Virus record (IMG/VR): IMGVR_UViG_3300042547_000074
Span: 1 to 62,189 of that record
DNA length: 62,189 nucleotides
Reading direction: 5' to 3' (one strand)
Source: a virus
In this document: piece after piece, positions 2,126 to 61,993 of the stretch
Layout: each line of letters starts with the position of its first letter
Position numbering within the stretch: the stretch's first letter is position 1
Position numbers and translations under genes: made by a program
Notes under the pieces: model-generated
Seen by the model: only the letters and a program-made list of their open reading frames with translations
Told to the model about the DNA's origin: nothing
Database searches by the model: none

Positions 2126-3202
2126 TTACAAAATATCTGCGTTCTCAGCCGCCCACTTGGTGAAGTCGCCATTGCGGAAGGCGATGGTCTGCTTGGTCTT
2201 GCTACGTGCGAGGCTGGTGCAGAACACAGCCTGATGCTCAGCCTCCATGCGAGACACATACTTCATGATGGCCGAGATGGTGTCGGCCTCCACTGCGCGC
2301 TCAAGGTTGAACAGCAGGGTGATGATTGCACCTACGGACGTAGGCACAGGTGCCGTGTCGGGTGCCTTGAGGATAAGCTCACGTGCAGGCAGCTCATCTT
2401 GGAACGCAATGAAGTGCTGCATGTCCCGCGCCGCAGGCTCACCGATGGTGCCGATGAGACCAGCCAGCAGCATGTTCTCGGTAAACTTCTCACGCTGCCA
2501 CACGATGTGCGATGCCTTCTCCAGCGAACGCGGGGTCACAACTTGGCCTACCTGCACACGCTTGGGGTTATCGACGTAGGGGTTGCTTGGGTCGAAGTCG
2601 TCATCGCGGAACGATGCCAGCGCAGTCGGGGTCTGGTTCACCCATGCCAGCACAACAGGGTGGATGCCATTGGCAGCGCCCCACACCAGCCACTCTTCGA
2701 CGGATGGTTGACGCACCTCGACGACGGTCATGCGGTTCATGGTATGGGCAAGGAACGTATCGCCCAGCCCCTCCTCGGACAGGTTGCAAGTAACAATGGC
2801 CATACTGCCAGCAGGCATCATCTTATCCGCAACGCGCCTAGGGTTCTCCAACATGGGCAACACCATGTTCTGGATACTGCGCGGTGCCTTGGCCAGCTCG
2901 TCCAGTATGATAACCACGGGCTTGCCAGTGGTCAGTTTGAGCGCCTCGTTGGTGAAGAACCGCATGACGCCGGCCTCCTTGTCGGGGAACGGGATAGCCG
3001 TATCGCCCTCGGCCTTGGCCGTCATGTCGAAGCAGGCGTATTCGTATTCGTCACCCAGATACTCACGCAGCATGGGTAGGATGCTTGTCTTGCCGATGCC
3101 CTTGGGGCCGCGCAGCATGACGTTGTTTGTTGTGCCGACAGCGGCGATGAACTGCGCTGCCTCCTTGAGGGAGACACGCGAACCGAAGTTGATTGAAGTC
3201 AT
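2126..3202 (-). CDS. MoxR-type AAA+ ATPase
   Basis: A 358-aa single-domain ATPase. The Walker A motif GPKGIGKTS is at 32-40, Walker B VVIILDELAK at 96-105 (catalytic DE 101-102) and a sensor-1 Asn at 140 in AIVTCN. The layout matches MoxR/CobS-like AAA+ proteins, which remodel or load protein partners, often VWA proteins. The VWA/metallopeptidase encoded two genes downstream is the obvious candidate partner. The ATG at 3202 has GAAGGAGCAAAC in front of it, a 24-bp palindrome at 3221-3244 and a promoter at 3310-3338, so it probably heads its own transcription unit. A cobalt-chelatase role (CobS) is less likely, as no cobalamin gene is present. Confidence 0.9.
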   Translation of the reverse strand: MTSINFGSRVSLKEAAQFIAAVGTTNNVMLRGPKGIGKTSILPMLREYLGDEYEYACFDMTAKAEGDTAIPFPDKEAGVMRFFTNEALKLTTGKPVVIILDELAKAPRSIQNMVLPMLENPRRVADKMMPAGSMAIVTCNLSEEGLGDTFLAHTMNRMTVVEVRQPSVEEWLVWGAANGIHPVVLAWVNQTPTALASFRDDDFDPSNPYVDNPKRVQVGQVVTPRSLEKASHIVWQREKFTENMLLAGLIGTIGEPAARDMQHFIAFQDELPARELILKAPDTAPVPTSVGAIITLLFNLERAVEADTISAIMKYVSRMEAEHQAVFCTSLARSKTKQTIAFRNGDFTKWAAENADIL

Positions 3203-3220: not shown

Positions 3221-3244
3221 GTTAGCCGAACCAGTTTGGATAAC
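3221..3244. promoter_or_regulatory. 24-bp palindrome, copy 1
   Basis: Reads GTTAGCCGAACC then AGTTTGGATAAC, an imperfect copy of the palindrome whose ideal half is GTTATCCGAACC. It lies in the leader of the MoxR gene, between the promoter and the ribosome-binding site. It could be a dimeric repressor operator or, as RNA, a 10-bp stem. Confidence 0.75.
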
Positions 3245-3309
3245 TGGTCGGTGGTGGTTGTGTTTGCTTATGCTTGATGGGGGCGGGTTGGTTCCCGCCT
3301 CACCCTTCT

Positions 3310-3338
3310 CTTGTAGCAGAGTAGGTAGACAAAGTCAA
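3310..3338 (-). promoter_or_regulatory. Sigma70-like early promoter for the MoxR unit
   Basis: On the minus strand, TTGACT (3338-3333), a 17-bp spacer ending CTGC, then TACAAG (3315-3310). It sits at the 3' edge of the upstream gene. A GGCGGG/CCCGCC hairpin (3282-3299) and palindrome copy 1 follow in the leader before the MoxR start. The spacer end and -10 resemble the promoters at 4788 and 51423. Confidence 0.65.
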
Positions 3339-3341
3339 GGT

Positions 3342-3710
3342 TCAGTCGACGGTGATGCTCACACTGATGCCCACACGGTATTGGTGGTAGGCGGAGCCAC
3401 CAGAGTCGAGATCGGTTCTCTCTTCGCCCACACGGGCATACTCCCAGCAGGCACGGCGCGTATTGAAGTCCTCGGTATCGAACGCCTCCTCGAACCGCTC
3501 GATGGCAACCCATACGTCCTTCACGTAGTCGAAGTCATCGTACCACTTCACGTCATCATACTTGACGGTGATGATATCGGTCAGCGGCTCAATGAAGGGG
3601 TCTCCCCCTCGCGGCCAGTTCTCCTCTACCCATAGCTTGATAGCTGGGAACATCTCTGGTTTGTCGGCGTCCGCATAGAAGGCGAACGTCACATCGCTAC
3701 GGTAGCCCAT
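3342..3710 (-). CDS. Unknown 122-aa early protein
   Basis: An acidic, aromatic-rich protein of alternating beta/alpha appearance. It opens MGYRSDV and contains several Trp and Tyr residues. No motif is recognised. Its ATG overlaps the last base of the upstream gene (TGATG), so the two are translationally coupled; the SD is GAGGGAGAA. It is followed directly by the promoter of the MoxR unit. Confidence 0.7.
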   Translation of the reverse strand: MGYRSDVTFAFYADADKPEMFPAIKLWVEENWPRGGDPFIEPLTDIITVKYDDVKWYDDFDYVKDVWVAIERFEEAFDTEDFNTRRACWEYARVGEERTDLDSGGSAYHQYRVGISVSITVD

Positions 3711-3925
3711 CAGAGTTCTCCCTCGTCGATATACAGGCCACCCATCTCGCTTGCCCAGTAGGACGCAACGATGCGTGTGCCATCGGTGAACGTAACCACA
3801 ATGCTGTTCAGCCCCTCGTCATCGCCGCAACGGCGCTCGTAAAGGGCTTTGTCACCCAGCACATGGACAGACTGCACCTGCTTACCTACGTGCTGGCGCA
3901 GGTCTAAAATCACTTCATCAACCAT
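3710..3925 (-). CDS. Unknown 71-aa early protein
   Basis: A small beta-rich acidic protein (TFTDGTRIVASYW, GLYIDEGEL) with no family I recognise. The SD GGGAGAG lies before ATG 3925. It starts 1 bp after the stop of the zinc-finger gene and overlaps the next gene by 1 bp, so it is the middle of a tight three-gene cluster. Function unknown. Confidence 0.65.
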   Translation of the reverse strand: MVDEVILDLRQHVGKQVQSVHVLGDKALYERRCGDDEGLNSIVVTFTDGTRIVASYWASEMGGLYIDEGEL

Positions 3926-3926
3926 G

Positions 3927-4124
3927 TCACTCTCCCGTTCGCTTAGGGTTGAGCATCGTCAGCTCTGCCTTGTTGGTGATAACAACGTAGTTGCTCTTGT
4001 TTAGTGGTGCGCTGCACCATTTCACTGCCCGCGCAGCGAAGTCGCCACACGACAGGCAGGTGTTGTAGCCCAGCAGGGCGCGGCGTTCGGAGTATGTCTC
4101 TCCACAGGATATGCACTCAGCCAT
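3927..4124 (-). CDS. Small zinc-ribbon protein
   Basis: A 65-aa protein with two CxxC knuckles: CISCGE near the N-terminus and CLSCGD about 18 residues later, a treble-clef or zinc-ribbon pattern suited to binding one zinc. The C-terminal half is basic. It could bind nucleic acid or another protein. The ATG at 4124 follows GAAGGAGCAAAC, with palindrome copy 2 a few bases upstream. A longer overlapping reading in another frame is discarded because it lacks this start site. Confidence 0.7.
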   Translation of the reverse strand: MAECISCGETYSERRALLGYNTCLSCGDFAARAVKWCSAPLNKSNYVVITNKAELTMLNPKRTGE

Positions 4125-4141
4125 TGGTTTGCTCCTTCTTT

Positions 4142-4165
4142 GTTATCTGAACTGGTTCGGCTAGC
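4142..4165. promoter_or_regulatory. 24-bp palindrome, copy 2
   Basis: Reads GTTATCTGAACT then GGTTCGGCTAGC. It lies directly upstream of the start-associated ribosome-binding site of the zinc-ribbon gene and directly adjoins a 7-bp hairpin (4166-4184). Confidence 0.75.
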
Positions 4166-4184
4166 GTGCAGCCCTATGCTGCAC
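4166..4184. other. Hairpin adjoining palindrome copy 2
   Basis: Perfect 7-bp stem GTGCAGC / GCTGCAC with loop CCTAT. It has no T-run, so it is not an ordinary intrinsic terminator. The same arrangement (7-bp stem, 5-base loop, immediately next to the palindrome) recurs at 4742-4760. Confidence 0.6.
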
Positions 4185-4203
4185 CTGAAAGGCGCATTGC
4201 CTA

Positions 4204-4347
4204 TCAAACGAGACCGCACTCGGTGCCGACAGGCAGGCGGTCCCAGCCAAAGTGTTTCCTGAAGAACCGCAGCGCCTCGCGCTTGTTGGGCGCATAGATC
4301 GGGTAGAACATCTCGCCACGGCAGTTGACCCAGTATTTCCGGCTCAC
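4204..4347 (-). CDS. Small basic unknown protein, GTG start
   Basis: A 47-aa reading frame starting GTG at 4347 inside the stop of the upstream gene (GTGA, 4-bp overlap) and ending at 4204. It begins MSRKYWVNCRGEMF and has a basic patch ALRFFRKHFGW. The tight overlap and the absence of any other gene here support it. Function unknown; it is similar in size to other early phage micro-proteins. Confidence 0.55.
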   Translation of the reverse strand: MSRKYWVNCRGEMFYPIYAPNKREALRFFRKHFGWDRLPVGTECGLV

Positions 4348-4700
4348 TTGTCCTCTCCCAGTTTGCGCGGGCGCACTACACCTACGTCACTAGGCACAAA
4401 GCTATTTGCCCATGCCATCAGCACATCGAGCGACTGGTCACCGTTCTCGCCCACCCAATCCAGCCACTCACGTTGAGTGGTGGTGTGCCGGTCCTCTCCC
4501 TTCAGGCTAGGCATCTCGAAAAGCATAGGCAGGTCGGACATAGGCACGTCCACCACAGGCACCCCGTTTGCCTTGGCCCACGCATTGATGAAGTTATGCA
4601 GGCTGCGCCTGTCCTCTAATTGTTGCTCCTCCGCGAACGCGATAGCGTCTAGCAAGCTAGGCTCAGGGTTGCTGTCTTGCAGCGTTTTCCAATCAGGCAT
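4344..4700 (-). CDS. Unknown 118-aa early protein
   Basis: An acidic, helical soluble protein with no recognised motif. ATG 4700 is preceded by AAAGGAATC rather than by the extended early motif. It is the first gene behind a convincing promoter (4788-4816), a 7-bp hairpin and palindrome copy 3, so it probably heads the 4700-to-3342 cluster and is made early. It overlaps the following 47-aa gene by 4 bp. Confidence 0.7.
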   Translation of the reverse strand: MPDWKTLQDSNPEPSLLDAIAFAEEQQLEDRRSLHNFINAWAKANGVPVVDVPMSDLPMLFEMPSLKGEDRHTTTQREWLDWVGENGDQSLDVLMAWANSFVPSDVGVVRPRKLGEDK

Positions 4701-4717
4701 CGTAAGATTCCTTTCTC

Positions 4718-4741
4718 GTTATCTGAACTGGTTTGGATAAG
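4718..4741. promoter_or_regulatory. 24-bp palindrome, copy 3
   Basis: Reads GTTATCTGAACT then GGTTTGGATAAG. It lies in the leader between the promoter at 4788-4816 and the start at 4700, and immediately adjoins the 4742-4760 hairpin. Confidence 0.75.
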
Positions 4742-4760
4742 TGTGGCGAGAAACGCCACA
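4742..4760. other. Hairpin adjoining palindrome copy 3
   Basis: Perfect 7-bp stem TGTGGCG / CGCCACA with loop AGAAA, directly next to the palindrome as at 4166-4184. In the minus-strand transcript the order is hairpin, palindrome, ribosome-binding site. Confidence 0.6.
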
Positions 4761-4787
4761 GCGCAGGACGGAATCGCCCTGACCTTG

Positions 4788-4816
4788 TGTGTAGCACAGA
4801 AGGGGAACAAAGTCAA
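4788..4816 (-). promoter_or_regulatory. Sigma70-like early promoter
   Basis: Minus strand: TTGACT (4816-4811), 17-bp spacer ending GTGC, TACACA (4793-4788). The first TTGTAAG heptamer (4821-4827) lies only 4 bp upstream of the -35 hexamer, where an activator or an alpha-CTD would bind. Confidence 0.65.
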
Positions 4817-4820
4817 GCTA

Positions 4821-5236
4821 TTGTAAGGAAAAAACCTTACAATGCTATTGTAAGATTGTAAGGGTTGGAAAAGTGCCGTCTTACGCCATTTCTTACGCCA
4901 ATCGGCGTTTAAAACCAACACGTTAGCTTTGTATTGTAAGATTGTAAGCTGTTTTTAGAAAATACTATTAGGGGGGGGGAAAACGGGAAAAAAATTGTGG
5001 CGGTGGTGTGGCATAGGCGGAGAGGCCCGGAAAACTGGGGGTCTTTTAATAACTTGAAAAATGGCCTTACAATCTTACGATACCACCTAAGCTGTTGGTA
5101 ACATGGCACTTTCACGGCGTAAGAACCTTACAATACGTTTCTTACATTAGGTTTTTTCTTACATTAGGTTTTTCCTTACAATAGCTAGTTATCCAAACCG
5201 GTTCGGGTAACTCGGCCCTTCGCGCGTTTCTTACAA
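4821..5236. repeat. TTGTAAG heptamer array in AT-rich DNA (origin candidate)
   Basis: Ten exact TTGTAAG/CTTACAA heptamers: 4821, 4836 (inverted), 4848, 4856, 4934, 4942, then inverted copies at 5066, 5127, 5175 and 5230. Several one-base variants (CTTACGC, CTTACAT) lie between. About 0.05 copies would be expected by chance. Left copies mostly point one way and right copies the other. The stretch also has a G-run near 4972 and no credible gene. Iteron-type replication origin or a multi-site regulator array are both possible. Confidence 0.7.
5188..5211. promoter_or_regulatory. 24-bp palindrome, copy 4
   Basis: Reads GTTATCCAAACC then GGTTCGGGTAAC. It is embedded at the right end of the heptamer array, with no gene directly beside it, which argues for a DNA-level role of the palindrome. 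Confidence 0.75.
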
Positions 5237-5241
5237 TAGCT

Positions 5242-5339
5242 CGGCCCGCCCACTCGTTTCTTACTATCACGCGTGGGCTAGGCGCGATCCAGATGCTGGG
5301 TGGGGATGTGGCGGCCCGCCCACTCGTTTCTTACTATCA
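5242..5339. repeat. 28-bp direct repeat, 70-bp period
   Basis: The block starting CGGCCCGCCCACTCG and ending CTTACTATCA occurs at 5242-5269 and again at 5312-5339, and similarity continues past one mismatch into GCG. The inner CTTACTA resembles the neighbouring heptamers. No gene is seen across 4817-5427 on either strand. Confidence 0.75.
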
Positions 5340-5371
5340 TGCGCGCCCGCCGCGCGGTGCGCGACAGGCAC

Positions 5372-5406
5372 AAAAAAGCCCCGCTTGGCGCGGGGCCAAG
5401 CGGGGC
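5372..5406 (-). terminator. Intrinsic terminator, minus strand
   Basis: Perfect 11-bp stem GCCCCGCTTGG (5378-5388) / CCAAGCGGGGC (5396-5406) with a 7-base loop. It is followed on the minus strand by six T (complement of 5372-5377). It closes the unit that starts at 6435, insulating the repeat region downstream. Confidence 0.8.
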
Positions 5407-5427
5407 AGGGGAAGCGGGGGAGGCTGG

Positions 5428-5565
5428 TCAAAAAAGATGACGCCATTCCAACCAGCACAATTCGCGTCCGTGCTGGTCAAGAATGGCCGTGCCTTCCGGG
5501 TAGGTGACAAGCCCGACGATAACGTGGTTGCGCCATTGGACGGGGCGGCGGAAATGGTGATGCAT
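5428..5565 (-). CDS. Possible 45-aa basic protein between two terminators
   Basis: ATG 5565 preceded by GAAGGGAC; stop at 5428, 21 bp before the strong terminator. The product begins MHHHFRRPVQW and is rich in His, Arg and Trp. It fits exactly between hairpins at 5582-5609 and 5372-5406, so read-through past the first would be needed to express it unless it has its own promoter. No family recognised; could be spurious. Confidence 0.4.
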   Translation of the reverse strand: MHHHFRRPVQWRNHVIVGLVTYPEGTAILDQHGRELCWLEWRHLF

Positions 5566-5581
5566 GGGAAGTCCCTTCGAG

Positions 5582-5609
5582 AAAAGCGGGGGAGGCTTGC
5601 GCCTCCCCC
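5582..5609 (-). terminator. Hairpin terminator after the 272-aa gene
   Basis: Perfect 9-bp stem GGGGGAGGC (5588-5596) / GCCTCCCCC (5601-5609) with loop TTGC, then GCTTTTC on the minus strand. It lies 8 bp after the stop of the gene at 5617. The T-run is short, so it may be leaky. Confidence 0.6.
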
Positions 5610-5616
5610 TAGCGTG

Positions 5617-6435
5617 TTATGCCTTAGCGGCAGCGGCAGCTTCTGCCTTGATGATTGCAGCGCAATCGCGGGCAAGGGCTTTGACGAAAGCAATCCGTTG
5701 GTTGGTGATTGCTTCCTCCCCAGCGGCAACCTTTTTGATGTAAGCAGTCGCGGCCCGCAATACGTCCGTAGGGGAAGCGGCAGCCGGGGCAGCCGGAGCC
5801 TTAGCCGGAGCCTTGCCCTTGCCGGGAGCGTTGCCGCTATTGGTACCCTTGGCCGTCACCTTGGCGATAAGGGCAGACGTCGATTTCTTGGCAGCGTCGA
5901 GCAAGCCGCTGGCCACCGTAGTGCCATTGCCGCCAGTCAACGCCAGTTTGTTGCCGGCCATGCTTGCGGCAATCATGTTATCAGTAAGCGCAACAGCGGC
6001 GGGCAGCACCTTACCCTTAATCAGCGACCATGCGCTATCGGCAGCCGGAGTAGTGGCATCATTCACCCCGGCAGCATACGCCAGCACGGCAGCCTTAAAG
6101 CCTGTTATGCGAGCGCGCTGTTCCTTACCTGCTACGTAGAACGGGGCAGCCTTGCGGGCGTAATCGTAAAGGCTTGCATGCTTCGTTTCCGTCACGTTGC
6201 CCTTTTTGTCGCGGGCTTGAAATTCAAAGCGATGCGCCAGCAAGGAAGCATTGGCCATGCCAGCAATCAGGATATCGGTTGCGCTGCCTTGCGCTACCTT
6301 GCCGGCAGCGAGCTGCTTACCGGCAGCGAGGGCAGCGTTCACGCCAGTGCGAAGGGTAGCAGCCTGTTCCGGAGTGAAGCCGGCAATGCCAGCGGCAGCA
6401 ACGGGGGAAGCCTTGCGAGTGTTACGTGCAGTCAT
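5617..6435 (-). CDS. Ala/Lys-rich early protein, unknown
   Basis: A 272-aa protein with about a quarter Ala and many Lys. There is an ordered region up to about residue 190, then a low-complexity GKGKAPAKAPAAPAAA linker and a helical tail ending in an Ala stretch. The tail composition is histone- or DNA-binder-like, but no domain is recognised. It is the first gene of the minus-strand arc beside the divergent control region, with promoter 6490-6518 and palindrome copy 5 upstream. The SD is AAAGGTAAAC. Its own terminators suggest separate, probably high, expression. A longer opposite-strand frame over it (5293-6591) is rejected as a shadow. Confidence 0.75.
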   Translation of the reverse strand: MTARNTRKASPVAAAGIAGFTPEQAATLRTGVNAALAAGKQLAAGKVAQGSATDILIAGMANASLLAHRFEFQARDKKGNVTETKHASLYDYARKAAPFYVAGKEQRARITGFKAAVLAYAAGVNDATTPAADSAWSLIKGKVLPAAVALTDNMIAASMAGNKLALTGGNGTTVASGLLDAAKKSTSALIAKVTAKGTNSGNAPGKGKAPAKAPAAPAAASPTDVLRAATAYIKKVAAGEEAITNQRIAFVKALARDCAAIIKAEAAAAAKA

Positions 6436-6489
6436 GTTGTTTACCTTTCAGTCTATGATTGCCGGCAACGGAATGCTCCCGGCCCCCCT

Positions 6490-6518
6490 TCCCTAGGCTT
6501 AGACAGTGTGAAGGTCAA
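6490..6518 (-). promoter_or_regulatory. Putative early promoter, weak -10
   Basis: Minus strand TTGACC (6518-6513), 17-bp spacer, TAGGGA (6495-6490). The -10 is poor. Palindrome copy 5 lies 9 bp upstream of the -35, the position of an activator site. Confidence 0.45.
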
Positions 6519-6527
6519 GCCTGCCCC

Positions 6528-6551
6528 GTTATCCGAACCGGTTCGGGTAAC
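6528..6551. promoter_or_regulatory. 24-bp palindrome, copy 5 (nearly perfect)
   Basis: Reads GTTATCCGAACC then GGTTCGGGTAAC, one base pair from a perfect palindrome. Here the site is upstream of the -35 of the leftward promoter, whereas copies 1 and 3 are downstream of their promoters. Confidence 0.8.
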
Positions 6552-13323: not shown

Positions 13324-13809
13324 ATGACTCGTGGTACTCGTACGTTTGACGACGTCGTTGGTGAGCTGGAGGAAGTGCGTGCACCCCGCCAGACGCGTGA
13401 AGAGGAAAAGCGCTTTCAGACTTGGGCACCGGCTTCGACGTTGCCTGAACCTGATAAGCAGCCGGGATATGACTATCGCTGGATTCGTGTTTCCACGATG
13501 AACGAGAAGGACCCCCGGAACATCTCGGCTAAGTTGCGCGAAGGTTGGGAACCTGTTCGTATTGAAGAGCAGCCCCAGTTTCGCCTGATGATTGACCCAG
13601 ATAGCCGCTTCAAAGACAACATCGAAGTCGCAGGGTTGCTGCTTTGCAAGGCCCCGAAGGAACTGATGAGGCAGCGCAAAAATTATTTTGCGCAGAAAAA
13701 TCAGGCCCAGATGGACTCAGTGGACAACAACTTTATGCGAGAGAACGATGCTCGTATGCCGCTCTTCCGTGAGAAGAGGTCATCGACATCATTTGGTAAA
13801 GGCAAATAA
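13324..13809 (+). CDS. Head-module protein, unknown (161 aa)
   Basis: Starts 1 bp after the scaffold stop. It contains GYDYRWIRVSTMNEKDP and a basic Gln-rich tail. Proteins of this size with a YRWIR phrase recur beside capsid genes of marine and freshwater podoviruses, usually unassigned. It may be a minor head or morphogenesis factor. No enzymatic motif. Confidence 0.75.
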   Translation: MTRGTRTFDDVVGELEEVRAPRQTREEEKRFQTWAPASTLPEPDKQPGYDYRWIRVSTMNEKDPRNISAKLREGWEPVRIEEQPQFRLMIDPDSRFKDNIEVAGLLLCKAPKELMRQRKNYFAQKNQAQMDSVDNNFMRENDARMPLFREKRSSTSFGKGK

Positions 13810-13820
13810 AGGAGCTAGAG

Positions 13821-14438
13821 ATGGCATATCCGTCTGTTACCAGCCCCTACGGGCTGATCCCGATCAATCTGATCGGCGGGCAGGTTTTTGCCGGTTCGAC
13901 TCGCTTGCTGCCCATCGCCACTAACTCTTCGACGGCCATCTTCTATGGTGACGTCGTGAAGTTGCTGGCTGGTGGTACGGTTGGCAAGGACACCGGTACT
14001 GACGCTGCTACGCCGGTTGGTGTTTTCCTCGGTTGCACCTACACCGATCCGGTGTTTGGTAAGACCTTCCGTCAGTACTACCCCGGCACCACGAACATCT
14101 CCGACATTCAGGCATACGTCCTTGATGATCCGGACGCTCTGTTCAAGGTTGCCGTGTGCGCCGGCACCAACTCGAACACCGTCAGCTTCCTGACTCAGGC
14201 TGCTGTCGGCTCGAACGTGAAGCTGGCTAACGGTGCTAACAACGTGGGTTCAACCATCACGGGCAACTCCAAGGTCGGCGTTGACTCGACCGAAGGTACG
14301 AGCTCGGCATGGCCGATCCGCGTGATTGATGTTGTCCCCGAAACCGCTCTGGCGGGTAACCCCGGTTCTTACACCGAAGTTATCGTCAAGTGGAATCAGG
14401 GTATGCATCAGTACCTGAACCCCACTGGCCTCGCATAA
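13821..14438 (+). CDS. Putative capsid decoration protein
   Basis: A 205-aa Gly/Ser/Thr-rich beta protein starting MAYPSVTSPYGLIPI, with strong SD AAAGGAGC. It directly precedes the major capsid gene. The composition (few Lys, many small residues) and position fit a head decoration or auxiliary capsid protein. The N-terminal SPYGLIPINLIGGQV phrase is familiar from phage head clusters. Function not proven by sequence. Confidence 0.7.
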   Translation: MAYPSVTSPYGLIPINLIGGQVFAGSTRLLPIATNSSTAIFYGDVVKLLAGGTVGKDTGTDAATPVGVFLGCTYTDPVFGKTFRQYYPGTTNISDIQAYVLDDPDALFKVAVCAGTNSNTVSFLTQAAVGSNVKLANGANNVGSTITGNSKVGVDSTEGTSSAWPIRVIDVVPETALAGNPGSYTEVIVKWNQGMHQYLNPTGLA

Positions 14439-14450
14439 GGAGACTGAACA

Positions 14451-15362
14451 ATGGCTATTTCACGCGCACAGCTCCTCAAGGAGCTCCTGCCCGGCCTGAA
14501 CGCCCTGTTCGGTCTGGAATACGCCCGCTATGGCGAAGAGCATAAGCAAATCTTCGAGACTGAAAGCTCTGAGCGTTCGTTCGAAGAAGAAACCAAGCTG
14601 TCGGGCTTCTCGGCTGCTCCGGTTAAGAACGAAGGTTCTGCCATTGCTTATGACAACGCTCAGGAAGTCTTCACGGCTCGCTACAACCATGAGACGATTG
14701 CCCTCGGGTTCTCGCTCACGGAAGAAGCCATCGAAGACAACCTGTATGACAGCCTCTCGGCTCGTTATACCAAAGCGTTGGCCCGTGCCATGGCGTACAC
14801 CAAGCAGACCAAGGCTGCTGCGGTCTTGAACAACGGTTTTGACTCGGACTACCCCGGTGGTGACGGTCAGCCGCTGTTTTCGAGCGCTCACCCGCTGGTC
14901 TCCGGTGGTACCAACTCGAACATCCCCAGCACGCCAGCTGACCTGAACGAAACGTCGCTTGAAGCGGCTGTCATTCAGATCGCTGCGTGGACGGATGAAC
15001 GTGGCCTGCTCATCGCGGCTAAGCCGCGTAAGCTGGTGGTTCCGCCGAGCCTGATGTTCGTTGCGACCCGACTGCTGGAGACTGAACTCCGCGTGTCGAC
15101 CGCCGACAACGACATCAACGCCATCAAGAGCAACGGCTCGATCCCGGAGGGTTACACTGTTAACCACTTCCTGACCGACACCGATGCTTGGTTCCTGACG
15201 ACCGATGTTCCGAATGGTCTGAAGCACTTCGTCCGTACCCCGCTCGCTCAGAGCATGGACGGCGACTTCGACACCGGCAACGTCCGTTACAAGAGCCGTG
15301 AGCGTTACTCGTTCGGCTGGTCTGACCCGCTGGGCATGTATGGTTCGGTAGGCGCTGCCTAA
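14451..15362 (+). CDS. Major capsid protein (Mu gpT-like, HK97 fold)
   Basis: A 303-aa protein with features of the Mu gpT major head subunit family: N-terminal GLNALFGLEYARYGEEHKQI, ETIALGFSLTEEAIEDN, and the C-terminal SRERYSFGWSDP phrase. The length fits the family. It would form the icosahedral shell. Strong SD AAGGAGA, and a strong intrinsic terminator follows 29 bp after the stop, consistent with high expression of the scaffold-capsid segment. Confidence 0.9.
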   Translation: MAISRAQLLKELLPGLNALFGLEYARYGEEHKQIFETESSERSFEEETKLSGFSAAPVKNEGSAIAYDNAQEVFTARYNHETIALGFSLTEEAIEDNLYDSLSARYTKALARAMAYTKQTKAAAVLNNGFDSDYPGGDGQPLFSSAHPLVSGGTNSNIPSTPADLNETSLEAAVIQIAAWTDERGLLIAAKPRKLVVPPSLMFVATRLLETELRVSTADNDINAIKSNGSIPEGYTVNHFLTDTDAWFLTTDVPNGLKHFVRTPLAQSMDGDFDTGNVRYKSRERYSFGWSDPLGMYGSVGAA

Positions 15363-15391
15363 GCTAAGTCCTAGGGAAGTTTAGGACTTTG

Positions 15392-15427
15392 AGACCCCCC
15401 GGCGAGAGTCGGGGGGTCTTTTCTTTG
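15392..15427 (+). terminator. Intrinsic terminator after the capsid gene
   Basis: Perfect 10-bp stem AGACCCCCCG (15392-15401) / CGGGGGGTCT (15410-15419), loop GCGAGAGT, then TTTTCTTT. It probably gives a stepped drop in transcription between capsid and tail genes. Confidence 0.9.
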
Positions 15428-15490
15428 TGCTAATAGCGTGATACAAGTACGTCACTAGGTATTTAACCCGTGTCGACTGTCCTAGCAGAC

Positions 15491-15522
15491 GTAGTAGCGA
15501 CGACATGGGTATGTGCTACTAC
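15491..15522 (+). other. Leader hairpin before the 138-aa gene
   Basis: GTAGTAGC (15491-15498) and GCTACTAC (15515-15522) form an 8-bp stem ending just before the SD ACGGAGA of the next gene. It could affect its translation or mark an RNA processing site. No clear promoter is seen in 15428-15535. Confidence 0.5.
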
Positions 15523-15535
15523 ACGGAGATAAATC

Positions 15536-15952
15536 ATGGCGAATACGACATTTTCGGGTCCAGTAATCTCGCAGAACGGTTTCGTTGGCGATTTCACCGG
15601 CAACATCACTGGCAACGTCACTGGCAACGTCACTGGCAACCTCACTGGCATCGTCTTTGGCACCGTTACGACCCGCTCGGGCGCTGGTGCTGTCCCGGTC
15701 ACCGCAGCTTCGGTTCAGATTTCGACGGGCGCTGGCGCTGCCGCGCTGACGCTTGCCAACGGCACTGCTGGTCAGATTCTGAATCTAGTCATGACCGTTG
15801 ATGGCGGCGGCGATGCGACTCTGACCCCGACCACCAAGACCGGTTTCTCGACCATTGTGTTCGGTGACGTGGGTGACTCGGTTATCCTCCAGTACTTCAC
15901 CACGCTGGGCTGGATGGTTCTGTCGAACAACGGCGCAACTGTTAACGCTTAA
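15536..15952 (+). CDS. Virion protein with GNVTGN repeats, unknown
   Basis: A 138-aa protein. After a short N-terminus, residues 20-38 repeat TGNxTGNxTGN, a pattern common at the start of trimeric fibre-like phage proteins; the rest is beta-rich and Ala/Gly/Thr-rich. It could be a head fibre or decoration protein given its place after the capsid gene. No enzyme motif. Confidence 0.7.
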   Translation: MANTTFSGPVISQNGFVGDFTGNITGNVTGNVTGNLTGIVFGTVTTRSGAGAVPVTAASVQISTGAGAAALTLANGTAGQILNLVMTVDGGGDATLTPTTKTGFSTIVFGDVGDSVILQYFTTLGWMVLSNNGATVNA

Positions 15953-15980
15953 TCGGTAACCTCTAAGAAGGAGAAATCCG

Positions 15981-16457
15981 ATGGGTATGCAATATGATGT
16001 CAAATCCAAACACCTAACTAGCTCAGGTGTTGCGTACGGTTCCCGCACCCGTCTGAAGGGGGCTATTGTTTCCGCAAACGCGACTGCGGCAGCAAGGCAC
16101 GTCCTTTTTATGGACAACGACCCGCAAGCGGGTACGTACAGCATTACCTCAACCACACTAACAGTTACGGTAGCAAATACCTTGGCTGCGGGTGATCGAG
16201 TAGTTTTGAATTTTACTAGTGGTACCGCTGTGGACGGCGCGTATACGGTACTTACTGCTAATGCCACCACCTTTACGGTTACTACGGCGGCGTCTGGTAC
16301 AGGTAACGTAACGGCCTACCTAACTGTATTGTTGGAAGCCGACAGCTATAACGCTGTTGCTTACTCTATACTTGTTCCCGGCGAAGGCATTCTAGCTGAA
16401 AATGGGATTTATGTAGGGTTGGATGCTAACCTAACTGCCACTGTTTTCTACGGGTGA
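15981..16457 (+). CDS. Unknown 158-aa structural protein
   Basis: A Thr/Ala/Val-rich beta protein with SD AAGGAGA. It resembles its neighbour in composition but I see no shared motif. It is probably a virion component between capsid and glycosyltransferase genes. DNA here is slightly richer in A/T and TA-containing codons than the flanking genes, a possible sign of later acquisition. Confidence 0.65.
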   Translation: MGMQYDVKSKHLTSSGVAYGSRTRLKGAIVSANATAAARHVLFMDNDPQAGTYSITSTTLTVTVANTLAAGDRVVLNFTSGTAVDGAYTVLTANATTFTVTTAASGTGNVTAYLTVLLEADSYNAVAYSILVPGEGILAENGIYVGLDANLTATVFYG

Positions 16458-16460
16458 CCT

Positions 16461-17195
16461 ATGCAGGCACAGCGCAGTTATGATCTAGCCGGGAAGAGCA
16501 TCTTCATTGCTCTGCCGGCCTACGACTTCAAGGTGTCCTTGAAGTTGGCCATCTCCCTTGCGCGCTTCGCGCAGGCGGCCCCGCAACACGGCATCGAGAT
16601 TCAGATTGGCTCCATCTGCGGCTGCTCAGTGGTCTCTCGGGCGCGCAACCTGCTGTCGCAGGACATGCTGGAGTCCAACTGCGACTACCTGATGTTTATC
16701 GACTCGGATATCAACTTCGAGCCTGACGACATCTTCCGCCTGATGGCGTGGGGTTCCGACCCCAAAAAAGGCATCGTCGCTGGTGTCCCGCGCACCCGCA
16801 GCGAGACCAAGACCTACATTGCCAACCTTGAGTACGACGAAAACGGTGACCTGACCATGAACGGTATGGGTCTGGTTCGTGCTGAGCGTGTCGCCACGGC
16901 GTTTATGCTGGTGCGCCGTGAGGTGTTTGTCGAGATGACCAAGGCCCACCCTGAGTGGACCTACTACGACAAGAAGACGGACCGCATGATCCCGTGCTTG
17001 TTTGACTTCCAGCTGACCGAAGAAGGTTACATGGGAGAGGATTACCTCTTCTGCGACCGCACCCGCGAGCTGGGCTTCGAGGTGTGGGTCGACCCTAGCA
17101 TCGCGCTGGGTCACATGGGTGTGCAGGAGTATGTTGGCGATTACGGGCGCGACGTACTCTACCCGATGGTTGTTCCGAATAGGAGTGTAGCATGA
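16461..17195 (+). CDS. GT-A type glycosyltransferase
   Basis: A 244-aa protein with an N-terminal nucleotide-sugar fold, a DxD-type motif in LMFIDSDINFEPDDI (about 78-83) and the later GEDYLFCDRTRELGFEVWVDP segment, matching a C-terminal acidic/His region of family 2 or Anp1-like enzymes. No membrane segment, so cytoplasmic. It may modify a virion protein or a host glycan. A second enzyme of the same layout is on the opposite strand at 55169-55957. Confidence 0.8.
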   Translation: MQAQRSYDLAGKSIFIALPAYDFKVSLKLAISLARFAQAAPQHGIEIQIGSICGCSVVSRARNLLSQDMLESNCDYLMFIDSDINFEPDDIFRLMAWGSDPKKGIVAGVPRTRSETKTYIANLEYDENGDLTMNGMGLVRAERVATAFMLVRREVFVEMTKAHPEWTYYDKKTDRMIPCLFDFQLTEEGYMGEDYLFCDRTRELGFEVWVDPSIALGHMGVQEYVGDYGRDVLYPMVVPNRSVA

Positions 17196-17530
17196 TGAAC
17201 CGCCGTAAGTTTGCCAGTATGGGTCGCCAGATAGCGGCACAGCAACGGGCGCAGCCGCAGATGCCAATGAGCGGAGGGATTGGCGCAGCACTTGGCCGCA
17301 TCGGACAGCGACCGGGTATGGCTCCGGTTGATCGGGGCTTTATTGATCGCATGCCAAGGATGAATGTTCCCGAGGGGCCGCCCCCGGCAGGGATGGCTCC
17401 GGTTGACCCAAGTAAGGCGATGATGATGAAGAAAGGCGGCGCGGTCAAGAAGATGGCCAAGGGCGGTACCGCTTCCAAGCGCGCCGACGGTTGTGCCACC
17501 AAGGGTAAGACGAAGGGACGGTTTGTATGA
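17192..17530 (+). CDS. Small KGG-type basic protein 1
   Basis: A 112-aa Met/Gly/Pro/Lys-rich protein. The C-terminal 40 residues hold MKKGGAVKKMAKGG followed by ADGCATKGKTKGRFV. The same end pattern recurs in the proteins at 17527 and 18686. It overlaps the glycosyltransferase stop (ATGA). Likely a DNA-binding or virion-packed small basic protein, but the role is unknown. Confidence 0.7.
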   Translation: MMNRRKFASMGRQIAAQQRAQPQMPMSGGIGAALGRIGQRPGMAPVDRGFIDRMPRMNVPEGPPPAGMAPVDPSKAMMMKKGGAVKKMAKGGTASKRADGCATKGKTKGRFV

Positions 17531-18264
17531 TGAAGAAGCGCAAGTTCGGCTCGGGCGGTATGCCGTCGATGAAGGAGTCGATGGAGTCGGGCAACCGTGT
17601 CTCGCGTCAGGTTGGTAAAGAAACCAAAAAGCTCATGCCCGCTACGCGGAGCACCCGCCCGTCAGTTGGCGATGCCATCGCTTCAGGTAACCGCATGTCC
17701 AAGAAAAATGCCGAAGACCTGAAGGCCGTGAAGAAGTACGCCAAGGGCGGCAAGGTCAAGCGCTACGCTGATGGTGACCTCGTTGTGGGCGGCGCTGACA
17801 CCAGCGGGCTGAGCCTTGGTATGCCGAGCATTGATACTGACCTGCGTCGTGCCCTGACCGACAAAGAGCTGATGGACGCCAACCTTGCTGCTGTCCGCGC
17901 CCGCGAAGCCGCTAGCACGGCGAAGCCCAAACCGAAGCCCCGCGCCGCTGCTCCGACCAAAAAGGCTGAAGCCCCGGTCAAGAAGGCTGAAGCCCCGGTC
18001 AAGAAGGCTGAAGCCCCGGTCAAGAAGGCCGAAACTCCAACTAAAAAGCCCGCTTCGGGTATGCGCGTTGGTTCAGAGTCGGCCCGCGCTGCAAAAACTG
18101 GCATGAGAGAAGGTCTGCGTCGGGGTGCAAATGCCTTGGGGGACTTTATCAAGTCTCCTTTCCGGGCGGCAGCTAATCCGGGCCGCGACTACGCCAAGGG
18201 CGGCTCCGTCACCCGTGGCGACGGCATTGCCAAGAAGGGCCACACCAAAGGGAAAATCTGCTAA
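17527..18264 (+). CDS. Histone H1-like KGG protein 2
   Basis: A 245-aa basic protein. Residues about 140-175 are a histone H1-like tail with the 7-residue unit KKAEAPV repeated three times (21-bp DNA repeats around 17967-18031). Two glycine-lysine motifs (YAKGGKVKRYADG; YAKGGSVTRGDG) precede and end it, with the terminal IAKKGHTKGKIC echoing proteins 1 and 4. ATGA overlap with protein 1. A DNA-condensing role in the head is a reasonable guess. Confidence 0.7.
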   Translation: MMKKRKFGSGGMPSMKESMESGNRVSRQVGKETKKLMPATRSTRPSVGDAIASGNRMSKKNAEDLKAVKKYAKGGKVKRYADGDLVVGGADTSGLSLGMPSIDTDLRRALTDKELMDANLAAVRAREAASTAKPKPKPRAAAPTKKAEAPVKKAEAPVKKAEAPVKKAETPTKKPASGMRVGSESARAAKTGMREGLRRGANALGDFIKSPFRAAANPGRDYAKGGSVTRGDGIAKKGHTKGKIC

Positions 18265-18518
18265 TGGCTAAGACCCCGGCTTGGCAACGTAAGGAAGGCA
18301 AGTCCGAAAAGGGCGGGCTGAACGCCAAGGGGCGTGCATCTTACAACAAAGCCAATCCGGGGAAGCCGGGGCTCAAGGCCCCGCAGCCTGAAGGCGGTTC
18401 GCGCAAGAAGTCATTCTGCGCCCGGATGTCTGGGATGAAGAAGAAGCTGACGAGCTCTAAGACCGCTAACGACCCGAACAGCCGTATCAACAAGTCTCTT
18501 CGCGCGTGGAAGTGCTGA
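18264..18518 (+). CDS. Conserved small basic phage protein (DUF6321-like)
   Basis: An 84-aa protein starting MAKTPAWQRKEGKSEKGG, with the phrase GLNAKGRASYNKANPG and a C-terminal KSFCARMSGMKKK...RKWKC-like end (here LRAWKC). This layout is known in many aquatic phages as DUF6321. Function unknown. It shares one base with the preceding stop. Confidence 0.8.
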   Translation: MAKTPAWQRKEGKSEKGGLNAKGRASYNKANPGKPGLKAPQPEGGSRKKSFCARMSGMKKKLTSSKTANDPNSRINKSLRAWKC

Positions 18519-18519
18519 C

Positions 18520-18684
18520 ATGACTGACGAATCAAAGACTCTACTGGACGCAGTCTCTATGGTTACCGTTGTTGGGACTATAATGGACATGCTACCTGCC
18601 GTCGCAGCTATCTTCACCATCATCTGGACTGGCATCCGTATCTACGAGACAGATACGGTGCAAAAATTTCTCGGGAAGGACTAA
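18520..18684 (+). CDS. Small single-span membrane protein (holin candidate)
   Basis: A 54-aa frame: an N-terminal amphipathic part MTDESKTLLDAVSMV, a hydrophobic stretch about residues 15-41 (MLPAVAAIFTIIWTGIRIY) and a short charged tail. The size resembles class II/III holins or virion-linked membrane peptides. It starts next to the stop of the previous gene and ends 1 bp before the next ATG. It lies far from the lysis cassette at 30431-31442, so it may instead be a virion or regulatory membrane protein. Confidence 0.6.
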   Translation: MTDESKTLLDAVSMVTVVGTIMDMLPAVAAIFTIIWTGIRIYETDTVQKFLGKD

Positions 18685-18685
18685 C

Positions 18686-19000
18686 ATGCCTAGCAAGACA
18701 CCCAAGCAGAAGAGCTTCATGGCCGCCGTGGCCAACAACCCCAAGTTCGCCAAGAAGGTGGGCGTTCCCTCTAAGGTCGGTAAGGAGTTCGAGATGAAGG
18801 ACAAGAAGATGGGCATGAAGAAGATGGCCGATAAGGCCGGTCGTGCCATGACCAAAAAGTCGGCTGACACGATGGGTCGTGCAATGCCGAAGATGGCTAA
18901 GGGTGGCACTGTCGGTAAGGCCGACGGCTGCGCTACCAAGGGCAAGACCCACACCAAGATGGTCAAGATGGCCATGGGCGGAAAGATGAAGGGCTGCTAA
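18686..19000 (+). CDS. KGG-type basic protein 4
   Basis: A 104-aa Lys/Met/Gly-rich protein. The N-terminal SKTPKQKSFMAAVANNPKF and VPSKVGKEF phrases are common in aquatic phage small proteins. The C-terminal part holds MAKGGTVGKADGCATKGKT, nearly the end of protein 1, extended by a further MAMGGKMKGC. Basic and probably disordered. Role unknown. Confidence 0.75.
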   Translation: MPSKTPKQKSFMAAVANNPKFAKKVGVPSKVGKEFEMKDKKMGMKKMADKAGRAMTKKSADTMGRAMPKMAKGGTVGKADGCATKGKTHTKMVKMAMGGKMKGC

Positions 19001-19001
19001 C

Positions 19002-19280
19002 ATGCGACCGAGTCGGGGTATGGGCGCTATGATGGCGTCCAAGATGCCAAAGGCGAAGACTATTCGTCGGAAGGATAACCCCGACTCGGTCACCGTCTAT
19101 GCCAAGGGCGGCAAGGTTAAGGCGAAGCGCATGGCCGAAGGTGGCAGCGCCAAGGACGCGTGCTATTCCAAGGTTAAGGCGCGCTACAAAGTCTTTCCTT
19201 CCGCCTACGCCTCCGGGGCTATCTCCAAGTGCCGCAAGGTCGGTGCCAAGAACTGGGGTAACAAAGGTGGCAGTTCGTAA
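19002..19280 (+). CDS. KGG-type basic protein 5
   Basis: A 92-aa protein with a VYAKGGKVKAKRMAEGG linker and a folded end DACYSKVKARYKVFPSAYAS...CRKVGAKNWGNK, a conserved module in cyanophage and pelagiphage-like genomes. It has Cys residues that might bind metal. Start at 19002, 1 bp after the previous stop. Function unknown. Confidence 0.75.
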   Translation: MRPSRGMGAMMASKMPKAKTIRRKDNPDSVTVYAKGGKVKAKRMAEGGSAKDACYSKVKARYKVFPSAYASGAISKCRKVGAKNWGNKGGSS

Positions 19281-19542
19281 GACCGAGAAAGGCGCTTCGC
19301 TTAAGCGCTGGTTCCAAGAAGATTGGAAGGACGTCCGCACGGGTAAAGCCTGCGGGCGTCAGCCCGGTGAGAAGCGCGGCACACCTTACTGTAGACCTAG
19401 TAAGCGTATTTCTGATAAGACCCCCAAGACGTCGTCGGAGATGACTCCGGCGGAAAAGAAGACGCGTATCGCGCAGAAGAAACGGTTGGGGCAGCCTCCC
19501 GGTGCGCCTAAGCGCGTACAGGCAGCGCGGAGACAGAAATGA
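19267..19542 (+). CDS. Conserved small basic protein (KRWFQEDW module)
   Basis: A 91-aa protein; GTG 19267 inside the previous gene is taken as start because the recognisable product begins MAVRKTEKGASLKRWFQED, followed by CGRQPGEKRG, YCRPSKRIS and KTPKTSSEMTP. These phrases recur in small proteins next to the CYSKVK module in other phages. The longer in-frame extension to 19099 overlaps the preceding gene and is not credible. Unknown function. Confidence 0.7.
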   Translation: MAVRKTEKGASLKRWFQEDWKDVRTGKACGRQPGEKRGTPYCRPSKRISDKTPKTSSEMTPAEKKTRIAQKKRLGQPPGAPKRVQAARRQK

Positions 19543-20279
19543 CCACCAGCGGTACGACATCCTTTAACCTCAACCTTAACGAGCTCTTCGAAGAGGCGTT
19601 CGAGCGTTGTGGCGTGGAAATGCGGACCGGCTATGACTTTCGCACGGCACGGCGCAGCCTGAACCTGCTGACCATTGAGTGGGCGAACAAGGGCATCAAC
19701 CTCTGGACGCTGGAGCAAGGCTCCATCCCGATGGTGCAGGGGCAGATTACATATCCGCTCCCCGTGGATACCATCGACCTGTTCGACCACGTCATCCGTA
19801 CGCAGACTGGGCAGGCGCAGACGGACATCAACATTAACCGTATCAGCGCCGATACGTACCTCACAATCCCCAACAAGAACGCGCAGGGTCGGCCTATTCA
19901 GGTGTGGATCAACCGCCAGTCAGGCGCAACCTATCCGGCGGGTGGACAACCCGCAGGGACCAACCCCTCCACGGGTGTCGATCATCCGTCGATCAACGTG
20001 TGGCCTGCCCCGGACCAGAACAACTTCTATACCTTTGTGTACTTCCGACTGCGCCGTCTTCAGGACGGAGGTTCGGGTACAACGACGCAGGACATCCCGT
20101 TCCGTATGCTGCCGCCCCTCGTGGCTGGCTTGGCATACCATCTGTCGCTAAAACTGCCCGGTGCGCTGGAGCGGTCCATCGGCCTCAAGGCCATGTATGA
20201 TGAGTTGTGGCAGCAGGCCGCAGACGAGGACCGCGAAAAAGCACCGCTGCGCCTAGCGCCGCGTCAGATGTTCTACTAA
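19539..20279 (+). CDS. Head-tail connector/adaptor-like protein
   Basis: A 246-aa protein with N-terminal helices (FEEAFERCGVEMRTGYDF, ARRSLNLLTIEWANKGINLW) and a beta-rich middle (YPLPVDTIDLFDHVI). The C-terminus is helical and ends RLAPRQMFY. Helix-rich subunits of this kind form the ring under the portal in podoviruses. It overlaps the preceding gene (ATGA). A homing endonuclease gene follows directly. Confidence 0.7.
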   Translation: MTTSGTTSFNLNLNELFEEAFERCGVEMRTGYDFRTARRSLNLLTIEWANKGINLWTLEQGSIPMVQGQITYPLPVDTIDLFDHVIRTQTGQAQTDININRISADTYLTIPNKNAQGRPIQVWINRQSGATYPAGGQPAGTNPSTGVDHPSINVWPAPDQNNFYTFVYFRLRRLQDGGSGTTTQDIPFRMLPPLVAGLAYHLSLKLPGALERSIGLKAMYDELWQQAADEDREKAPLRLAPRQMFY

Positions 20280-20288
20280 GTAGGCGTC

Positions 20289-20780
20289 GTGCTCACCGGC
20301 CTGCTTTTTATCGTGTGGGCTGCGGGGTTTTTCGACGGCGAAGGCTCTGTTTTTGTTGAGATATCCAAGAACAAAAACACCCGGCGTAGAGTACGTAACT
20401 TGCTAACCGCGTCCGTTACTCAGACGTCTACACCGTGCCTGAATCTGTTCAAGGAGCATTTTGGCGGTAATATAACACCGATAACCAAGAGTCGGCGGCA
20501 CCACATGAATAACTCTGTATGCTACGTGTGGCGCGTACGCAGTAAAGATGCGATAGCGTTCCTTGAAGTCATAGCTCCTTATGTGGTAGTGAAGAAGGAG
20601 CAAGTAGAGTTAGCGCTCCAGTACCCACTTACGTCAGCGGACGGTAGGAAATATGCGGGTCCCTATAACCCCCTGCCTGACGAGGTCCATAACCGGCGTA
20701 TGGAGATTGGGCAAAAACTCAGAGACATCCGGGCGTCGATGAAGACGGCTTCGGTAGTGAGAGAGGATATAAGTGCCTAA
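20289..20780 (+). CDS. LAGLIDADG homing endonuclease, free-standing
   Basis: A 163-aa protein with one LAGLIDADG-type motif near the N-terminus (IVWAAGFFDGEGSVF, residues 8-22), followed by a beta saddle and SKDAIAFLEVI helix. A single motif implies a homodimer. GTG start. It lies between two structural genes, overlaps the next by 8 bp, and no intron or split gene is seen, so it is a selfish insertion rather than an intron gene. Its target is probably the homologous junction in related phages. Confidence 0.85.
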   Translation: MLTGLLFIVWAAGFFDGEGSVFVEISKNKNTRRRVRNLLTASVTQTSTPCLNLFKEHFGGNITPITKSRRHHMNNSVCYVWRVRSKDAIAFLEVIAPYVVVKKEQVELALQYPLTSADGRKYAGPYNPLPDEVHNRRMEIGQKLRDIRASMKTASVVREDISA

Positions 20781-21213
20781 CCGGTTCGCCTCTGGTAAGT
20801 ACGCGATTTCGCAGTGTGACCGCTGCGGCTTTCGCTACAAGCTGAAGGAACTGAGGTCGCTCGTCATCAAGACGAAGAACGTCAACATCCTTGTGTGCCC
20901 CACCTGCTGGGAACCCGATCAGCCGCAGCTTCAACTGGGTATGTACCCGGTGGATGACCCACAGGCGCTGCGCAACCCGCGCCCCGATACGACCTACCGG
21001 CAAGCCGGTTTGACGGGGTTACGCACTCAGCCAGTTACACAACCGACCGAGGATACTGACGCGTTCGGTACCCCTTCGCAAGGTAGCCGAATCATTCACT
21101 GGGGGTGGAACCCTGTGGGTTTTCAAAATCCCTTGGGTTTGTGGGGTCTTCCTGATACATTGGCAGGCAGTGGTCAGGTCGGTACCGTGACTATTCAGAC
21201 GACGGAGAATTGA
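20773..21213 (+). CDS. Zinc-ribbon virion-module protein
   Basis: A 146-aa protein with CDRCG (residues 15-19) and CPTC (about 42-45) knuckles, i.e. one zinc ribbon, then a Pro-rich, poorly structured tail. The ISQCDRCGFRYKLKELR and ALRNPRPDTTYR phrases recur in tail/adaptor clusters of aquatic phages. GTG start within the end of the endonuclease gene. Probable structural or assembly factor. Confidence 0.75.
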   Translation: MPNRFASGKYAISQCDRCGFRYKLKELRSLVIKTKNVNILVCPTCWEPDQPQLQLGMYPVDDPQALRNPRPDTTYRQAGLTGLRTQPVTQPTEDTDAFGTPSQGSRIIHWGWNPVGFQNPLGLWGLPDTLAGSGQVGTVTIQTTEN

Positions 21214-21214
21214 T

Positions 21215-21340
21215 ATGGCTAAGGGTGGTAAGACTAACGACCAGATGCTGAAGCTCGGACGTAACCTTGCTAAGGTTGCGAACCAGAAGAGCGGCAAGAA
21301 GCCGATCAAGGATATGGGAAAGGTCGATAAAAATGGATAA
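21215..21340 (+). CDS. 41-aa basic protein
   Basis: ATG 21215, 1 bp after the preceding stop. The product begins MAKGGKTNDQMLKLGRN and is Lys-rich, another of the small basic type found at 17192-19542. It overlaps the next start by 8 bp. The close packing supports translation; function unknown. Confidence 0.55.
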   Translation: MAKGGKTNDQMLKLGRNLAKVANQKSGKKPIKDMGKVDKNG

Positions 21341-21479
21341 CGTCAATCAGCCCAAGCCAGCGCATAACCCGCTGGGCAACAGCGGCTACCCGAACAACGT
21401 ACCTAACACCCAGACCGTGAAGACGCGCGGGACCGGTGCGGCTACCAAAGGTACGCATAGCAGCAAGAAGCTTGGCTAA
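21333..21479 (+). CDS. 48-aa small basic protein
   Basis: MDNVNQPKPAHNPLG start at 21333, ending VKTRGTGAATKGTHSSKKLG, where KTRGTGAATKG is a phrase seen in tiny proteins of related phages. An upstream in-frame Met at 21267 lies inside the preceding gene and is not used. The stop shares one base with the next ATG. Confidence 0.6.
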   Translation: MDNVNQPKPAHNPLGNSGYPNNVPNTQTVKTRGTGAATKGTHSSKKLG

Positions 21480-22141: not shown

Positions 22142-22142
22142 T

Positions 22143-22430: not shown

Positions 22431-22441
22431 GGAGACCTACA

Positions 22442-23292: not shown

Positions 23293-23300
23293 GGTAGTAG

Positions 23301-25178: not shown

Positions 25179-25188
25179 GGACTGGACT

Positions 25189-25584: not shown

Positions 25585-25595
25585 GGACGGCGTAG

Positions 25596-26909: not shown

Positions 26910-26922
26910 TGGAGCACAACGC

Positions 26923-27174: not shown

Positions 27175-27205
27175 CCATGCGCTCCTTCCACACAGGTAAC
27201 CTCTA

Positions 27206-28114: not shown

Positions 28115-28122
28115 GGTAGGGT

Positions 28123-30419: not shown

Positions 30420-30430
30420 GGAGGACCGGC

Positions 30431-30913: not shown

Positions 30914-30921
30914 GAGACTAT

Positions 30922-31086: not shown

Positions 31087-31087
31087 A

Positions 31088-55158: not shown

Positions 55159-55168
55159 TTGCTTGCTC

Positions 55169-61969: not shown

Positions 61970-61993
61970 CTTATCCGAACTGGTTTGGATAAC
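61970..61993. promoter_or_regulatory. 24-bp palindrome, copy 6
   Basis: Reads CTTATCCGAACT then GGTTTGGATAAC. It lies between the metallopeptidase stop (61996) and the ribosome-binding site of the next early gene, with no promoter recognised nearby. Confidence 0.75.

Follow-up and report, generated by a model that had tools for sequence, protein, structure and literature searches.

The viral DNA analyzed here, which comprises 62,189 nucleotides (IMG/VR record IMGVR_UViG_3300042547_000074, positions 1 to 62,189; termed the window hereafter), carries six copies of a 24-bp palindrome in its early region. The palindromes occupy positions that are conserved among related phages, and their sequence changes together with a single gene, g8 (5617..6435, minus strand), which is the first early gene and encodes a protein of 272 amino acids belonging to no known family. 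We consider it probable that the palindromes serve as DNA operators through which the phage controls an early regulon of its own, in which the g8 product would be the most likely binder and would act mainly as a repressor by roadblocking transcription.

The six copies start at 3221, 4142, 4718, 5188, 6528, and 61970 and share the motif GTTATCYRAACYRGTTYGGRTAAC. When up to three mismatches to a perfect palindrome were allowed, four matches were found in the window and none in 100 dinucleotide shuffles. A symmetric weight matrix scored the six sites at 34-40 bits and the next-best candidate in the window at -2 bits, a gap of 36 bits implying that the set consists of exactly six palindromes. All of them are intergenic and located in the minus-strand early arc, with zero copies in the late genes and the remainder of the record. 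The first-pass annotation, made from the sequence alone, had listed the same six copies with none in the late arc, and both the shuffles and the weight matrix bear this out. The placement of the sites is as varied as described there, namely within leaders (3221 and 4718), upstream of a -35 box (6528), and inside a repeat array (5188). Four of the sites precede start codons: GTTAGCCGAACCAGTTTGGATAAC (3221..3244) is 18 nt upstream of the start of a MoxR-like ATPase gene, GTTATCTGAACTGGTTCGGCTAGC (4142..4165) and GTTATCTGAACTGGTTTGGATAAG (4718..4741) are each 17 nt upstream of the starts of the genes 3927-4124 and 4344-4700, respectively, and CTTATCCGAACTGGTTTGGATAAC (61970..61993) resides in a short gap, 10 nt upstream of the gene 61756-61959. 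Of the other two, GTTATCCAAACCGGTTCGGGTAAC (5188..5211) is in the repeat-rich noncoding stretch downstream of g8 and has equivalents in relatives, and GTTATCCGAACCGGTTCGGGTAAC (6528..6551), of which equivalents exist in most relatives, ends approximately 9 bp upstream of the TTGACC -35 box of g8.

The relatives come from viral contigs that were searched for terminase, MoxR, and, at a later stage, early genes. More than 200 loci resulted, and approximately 20 records were retrieved in full or nearly in full. Apart from Planktothrix phage Pag-Yong1 and other named phages, they are metagenome contigs. A de novo search for repeated palindromes, made without the motif of the window, recovered 4-22 copies per family in most of the records whose early region is intact, and the shuffled controls gave none. 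The palindrome sequence is private to each phage or phage group, amounting to approximately 20 unrelated codes, such as TTTACCGTACACGTGTACGGTAAA in G016 and G018, GTTTGCCGTAGYRCTACGGCAAAC in G017, GTTATCCGAGACGTCTCGGATAAC in G020, AGCGTACGGCNGCCGTACGCT in G021, GCATGTAGT-N4-ACTACATGC in G012, and CTAACA-N-TGTTAG in G011 and G013. As expected from a private code, the consensus of the window with its conserved ends had zero matches in an exact-pattern scan of viral contigs. Many of the palindrome families have an AC..GT center in common, so that a common ancestral mode of recognition is possible. No significant bias in the orientation of the palindrome center was found in the larger set of sites, and an apparent bias in a small set vanished. 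No clear palindrome family was found in the stretches examined of Pelagibacter phages HTVC023P and HTVC027P, phage 023Pt_psg01, and phage LC04.

What is conserved among the relatives is the position of the sites and not their sequence. The sites in 18 relatives fell into the same three classes as those in the window, although this classification rests on a simple gene finder and approximate gene calls. In most relatives, one site precedes the first early gene by approximately 100 bp (70-155 bp) and faces the divergent late genes; one to five sites lie in a noncoding stretch of 0.7-1 kb downstream of that gene; and the remaining sites are just upstream of early start codons. The MoxR leader was occupied by a palindrome in 35 of the 43 loci (2.8 expected). 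Among the 77 sites in long gaps, 33 were within 40 nt of a start codon (12.1 expected), mostly at a distance of 13-22 nt. Some sites were in gaps of about 33 nt, and others were beside promoters. In the complete relatives analyzed, the palindromes were restricted to the early region, and copies as frequent in late genes, an outcome that the first-pass annotation had named as contrary to its proposal, were not found in them. The other outcome named there, a lack of conservation of the sites among relatives, was not seen either, since their positions are kept although the sequence is not.

An analog of g8 was found at the same locus in 132 entries of the pool and could be divided into 15 sequence families. 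The similarity between palindromes was correlated with that between g8 proteins (Mantel rho of 0.71, reached by 0 of 2,000 permutations) across 56 non-redundant loci, which are still partly redundant despite the removal of near-identical g8 proteins. For this set, earlier site tables replaced the automatic search as the source of five palindromes, and loci L033 and L055 were left out as unreliable. The correlation was 0.45, 0.43, and 0.71 after correction for MoxR, a CobT-like protein, and terminase, respectively. The members of one large g8 family (family II) were nearly all paired with CTAACA-N0-2-TGTTAG, and the variants in spacing went with subgroups of the family. Of the 66 loci found solely through a family II relative of g8, most carried this palindrome unprompted. 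The more diverged members of family II (G007, L232, L238, L243, and L282) had other palindromes. In family II phages, copies also occur inside genes; one of them is found within the MoxR gene at the same position, near 8682, in L251, L252, L260, and L263. The palindrome thus changes together with g8, which evolves fast, and this covariation marks g8 as the candidate binder, probably the switch that recognizes the palindrome.

The most direct view of the covariation is provided by near-isogenic phages. Between G016 and G017, most of the early arc is approximately 94-95% identical at the DNA level and most of the early proteins are 93-100% identical, but the g8 proteins share only 28-32% identity and every palindrome differs. 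The identity falls over g8, one neighboring small gene, and the short stretches that hold the palindromes. In the alignments of the leaders of MoxR and the gene 4344-4700, the promoter and the start region were retained, while the palindrome between them was replaced; the DNA flanking the swapped sites is approximately 94-95% identical. G018, on the other hand, shares with G016 both the palindrome and a g8 of 95% identity. No other early gene among the 31 of G016 shows the pattern of g8, which closely matches its counterpart in G018 (95%) but differs from those in G017 (approximately 30%) and G000 (28%). The record of another relative, G019, ends short of g8, and its MoxR leader carries the palindrome of the G016 type.

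AlphaFold predicted mostly helical structures for g8, with a mean predicted local distance difference test (pLDDT) score of 71 for family I and 84 for family II. In both models, a short turn connects two helices, the second of which has a conserved tryptophan near its beginning. This element could be a divergent helix-turn-helix, which is our own reading of the secondary structure in the models. Profile comparison of the two large g8 families detected no homology between them. No family II relative of g8 was found in bacterial genomes, in which a search with MoxR retrieved two MoxR-like contigs in metagenome bins, and neither the g8 of the window nor that of G011 was found in isolated phages. 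In G015, two tandem g8 paralogs with 40% identity to each other (57052-57615 and 58114-58701) are both located in the palindrome-bearing region. The first-pass annotation had noted a resemblance of the palindrome center to LacI-type operators, but we found no relation of g8 to LacI, and no LacI match was obtained among the 16 early proteins scanned with Pfam (the remaining proteins were scanned with PHROGs only).

Several observations, including some given below in favor of control at the RNA level and of another swapped protein, weigh against g8 as a DNA-binding regulator of these sites. Neither g8 nor family II matched any entry in Pfam, PHROGs, or the PDB sequences, leaving the protein with no recognizable DNA-binding domain, and no significant fold match was obtained for either model against PDB or for the family II model against viral models. 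No clear palindrome family was found in G006 and G009, both of which possess a g8 analog. MoxR (0.35, as is expected from the linkage of the genes) and the CobT-like protein each retain a partial correlation with the palindrome that is smaller than that of g8. The alternative at the RNA level, which the first-pass annotation had raised as an RNA structural element, is that the palindrome forms an mRNA hairpin just upstream of the ribosome-binding site, where a translational regulator would bind it or an RNase would cleave it. Such a translational role would suit the near-constant spacing of 13-22 nt between site and start codon, which is kept even in long gaps, as well as the many intra-operon sites with no promoter of their own. 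On the minus strand, 4122-4204 gave a sub-threshold match to the Rfam family freshwater-2 (RF02980; 26.1 bits versus a gathering cut-off of 49.9) that overlaps the palindrome at 4142 and the ribosome-binding site, but no Rfam family reached the cut-off in this region. An mRNA hairpin tolerates G-U pairs but not A-C mismatches, and the leader sites, read on the sense strand, show the reverse of what selection for a hairpin predicts, with 29 A-C mismatches and 10 G-U pairs (p of 0.003, for copies that are not fully independent). In the non-leader sites the two are balanced (17 A-C and 21 G-U). Moreover, in both the window and G014 the conserved copy near g8 precedes the -35 box of that gene, and some copies in family II phages are intragenic. 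Given the mismatches and these placements, recognition of DNA is the simpler reading, and we regard control at the RNA level as unlikely.

The remaining alternatives concern other roles for the sites or other binders. The sites might serve replication, partition, or packaging as iterons or ParB-like centromere sites, with the leader copies being secondary, as at least one copy is in a repeat-rich noncoding stretch that is a possible origin. Most copies are, however, dispersed over approximately 10 kb at fixed leader positions, and g8 showed no domain of a partition or initiator protein, making this role improbable. It is very improbable that the palindromes are selfish short mobile repeats, akin to repetitive extragenic palindromic (REP) sequences or miniature inverted-repeat transposable elements (MITEs), that spread within each genome: several copies per genome with a genome-specific sequence would fit such repeats, but from phage to phage the copies stay at the same places even though their sequence is exchanged, and only the early control regions are occupied in complete relatives. 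The protein encoded by 54433-55185, with a variable, HTH-like N-terminus and a domain resembling DUF6378 at its C-terminus, has its N-terminus replaced between close relatives and exemplifies a different phage protein that might be swapped with the sites. It also separates G000 and G017 from G016 and G018 in part, and its N-terminus resembles a helix-turn-helix (HTH). On the other hand, no match to it was found in most palindrome-bearing relatives, G019 combines a MoxR-leader site of the G016 type with a homolog that lacks the N-terminal domain, and the identity is only 72% between G016 and G018 and 67% over part of the length with G017. We hold a binder of this kind to be distinctly improbable. 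Finally, the first-pass annotation had nominated the Cro/CI-type HTH protein encoded by 49808-50035, a conserved phage protein, as the regulator. This protein is identical between G017 and G018, of which the palindromes are completely different, and its recognition helix hardly changes across the clade. We rejected it as the binder, and the chance that the palindromes are its operators is negligible.

Returning to g8 as the regulator, its product would act as a symmetric dimer or a higher oligomer. The phage regulon with a dimeric regulator suggested at first pass gains support from sites that keep their places in relatives and change in sequence as a set with one early protein. We infer from the sequence comparisons that g8 would have binding sites close to its own promoter (6528) and within the neighboring noncoding stretch (5188), as well as in early leaders and intergenic gaps just upstream of the ribosome-binding sites (3221, 4142, 4718, and 61970). 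Bound g8 would mainly block the elongating RNA polymerase, by which the early genes would be shut down or tuned. Repression by a roadblock is suggested by the location of the sites in transcribed leaders and in gaps with no promoter. Two leaders have a sigma70-type promoter, TTGACTTTGT-N-TGCTAYAAG, approximately 75 nt upstream of the palindrome, which places the palindrome approximately 40 nt into the predicted transcript. The regulator and all of its dispersed sites would change specificity together, resulting in a private lock-and-key code for each phage lineage, and this diversification was perhaps driven by escape from silencing by competing phages.

The features surrounding the sites are as follows. 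The MoxR-like AAA ATPase gene (2126..3202, minus strand) is a putative member of the regulon, and a sigma70-type promoter, TTGACT-17-TACAAG, was predicted for it at 3310..3338 on the minus strand. Another predicted sigma70-type promoter on the same strand, TTGACT-17-TACACA (4788..4816), is 75 nt upstream of the site at 4718 and is conserved in G016, G017, and G018. For g8, pattern matching predicted the sigma70-type promoter TTGACC-17-TAGGGA (6490..6518, minus strand), at which the palindrome is placed upstream of the -35 box, unlike the leader sites. The noncoding stretch downstream of g8 (4741..5616, 876 bp) contains direct and inverted repeats of the TTGTAAG type and may be a replication origin; it also contains nine consecutive G and, at 5378-5406, a strong hairpin resembling a terminator. 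Positions 62005-62189 repeat positions 1-185 of the window with few mismatches, implying that the contig is probably circular or circularly permuted and was closed across strain variants.

Among known systems, the operators of CI and Cro in lambdoid phages are palindromic and differ, as a set with the cognate regulator, between related phages (heteroimmunity). Unlike those operators, the sites described here are dispersed through early leaders instead of being confined to two promoters, the regulator is not of the HTH_3 type, and no sign of lysogeny was seen. Neither integrase nor resolvase (PF00589 and PF00239) was found in 11 records, which still allows for extrachromosomal prophages. The stoperators of cluster A (L5-like) mycobacteriophages, which are temperate, are 13-bp asymmetric sites oriented with transcription and bound by a monomeric two-domain HTH repressor, and they block the elongation of transcription (PMC6550527, PMC9283540). 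The two systems are alike in having numerous copies of one motif in promoters and short intergenic spaces (PMC6550527, PMC9283540) and in the correlation of motif distance with regulator distance, which is seen here with g8. They differ in that our sites are palindromes of approximately 14-24 bp, that the repressor has an HTH and a stoperator domain while g8 of families I and II has no match in Pfam, PHROGs, or PDB, and that unrelated codes are exchanged inside otherwise 94-95% identical early DNA of phages with no integrase or resolvase found. The ESAS of cluster K mycobacteriophages are inverted repeats upstream of the translation starts of a subset of genes, with 17-bp imperfect arms and a spacer of 4-13 bp; they are tied to the 13-bp asymmetric SAS, and the sections of the source that deal with them give neither a function nor a cognate protein (PMC3203893). 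The ESAS resemble our sites in being start-adjacent inverted repeats with a consensus that differs somewhat between genomes (PMC3203893). In our phages, unlike the ESAS, at most 0-4 bp separate the abutting arms, we noticed nothing like an SAS, and we identified a protein that covaries with the sites. A literature text search, the reach of which excluded subscription journals and preprints, found no description of a system such as the one proposed here.

A cultured relative, Planktothrix phage Pag-Yong1 (OL906435, L297), was examined over 33 kb, in which GGTTCAGNCTGAACC occurs 22 times, in many cases approximately 21 nt upstream of a start codon. Its first early gene belongs to an unknown family, and the protein matches neither g8 profile. 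Unlike in the closer relatives of the window, the palindrome of Pag-Yong1 is also found between and inside late genes (13775-31256). As Pag-Yong1 is cultured, it offers a laboratory system for testing the hypothesis.

The analysis provides a candidate function for an orphan protein that occupies a fixed locus in a widespread group of uncultured phages. Approximately 20 natural regulator-operator pairs can serve as a source for deriving rules of recognition, and near-isogenic phages in which one regulator and all of its sites have been exchanged are now at hand. On a more tentative note, it is possible that in this large group of freshwater and marine phages the early genes are under a master regulator with private operators, encoded by a hypervariable first early gene that occurs in several forms unrelated in sequence and lacking any known DNA-binding fold, and that the gene and its sites are exchanged as a set under competition between phages, constituting a control of incompatibility or superinfection without lysogeny. 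If the proposed regulon itself is confirmed, private operator codes like those of lysogen immunity would be shown to evolve also in phages that give no sign of lysogeny, raising the question of why they do so.

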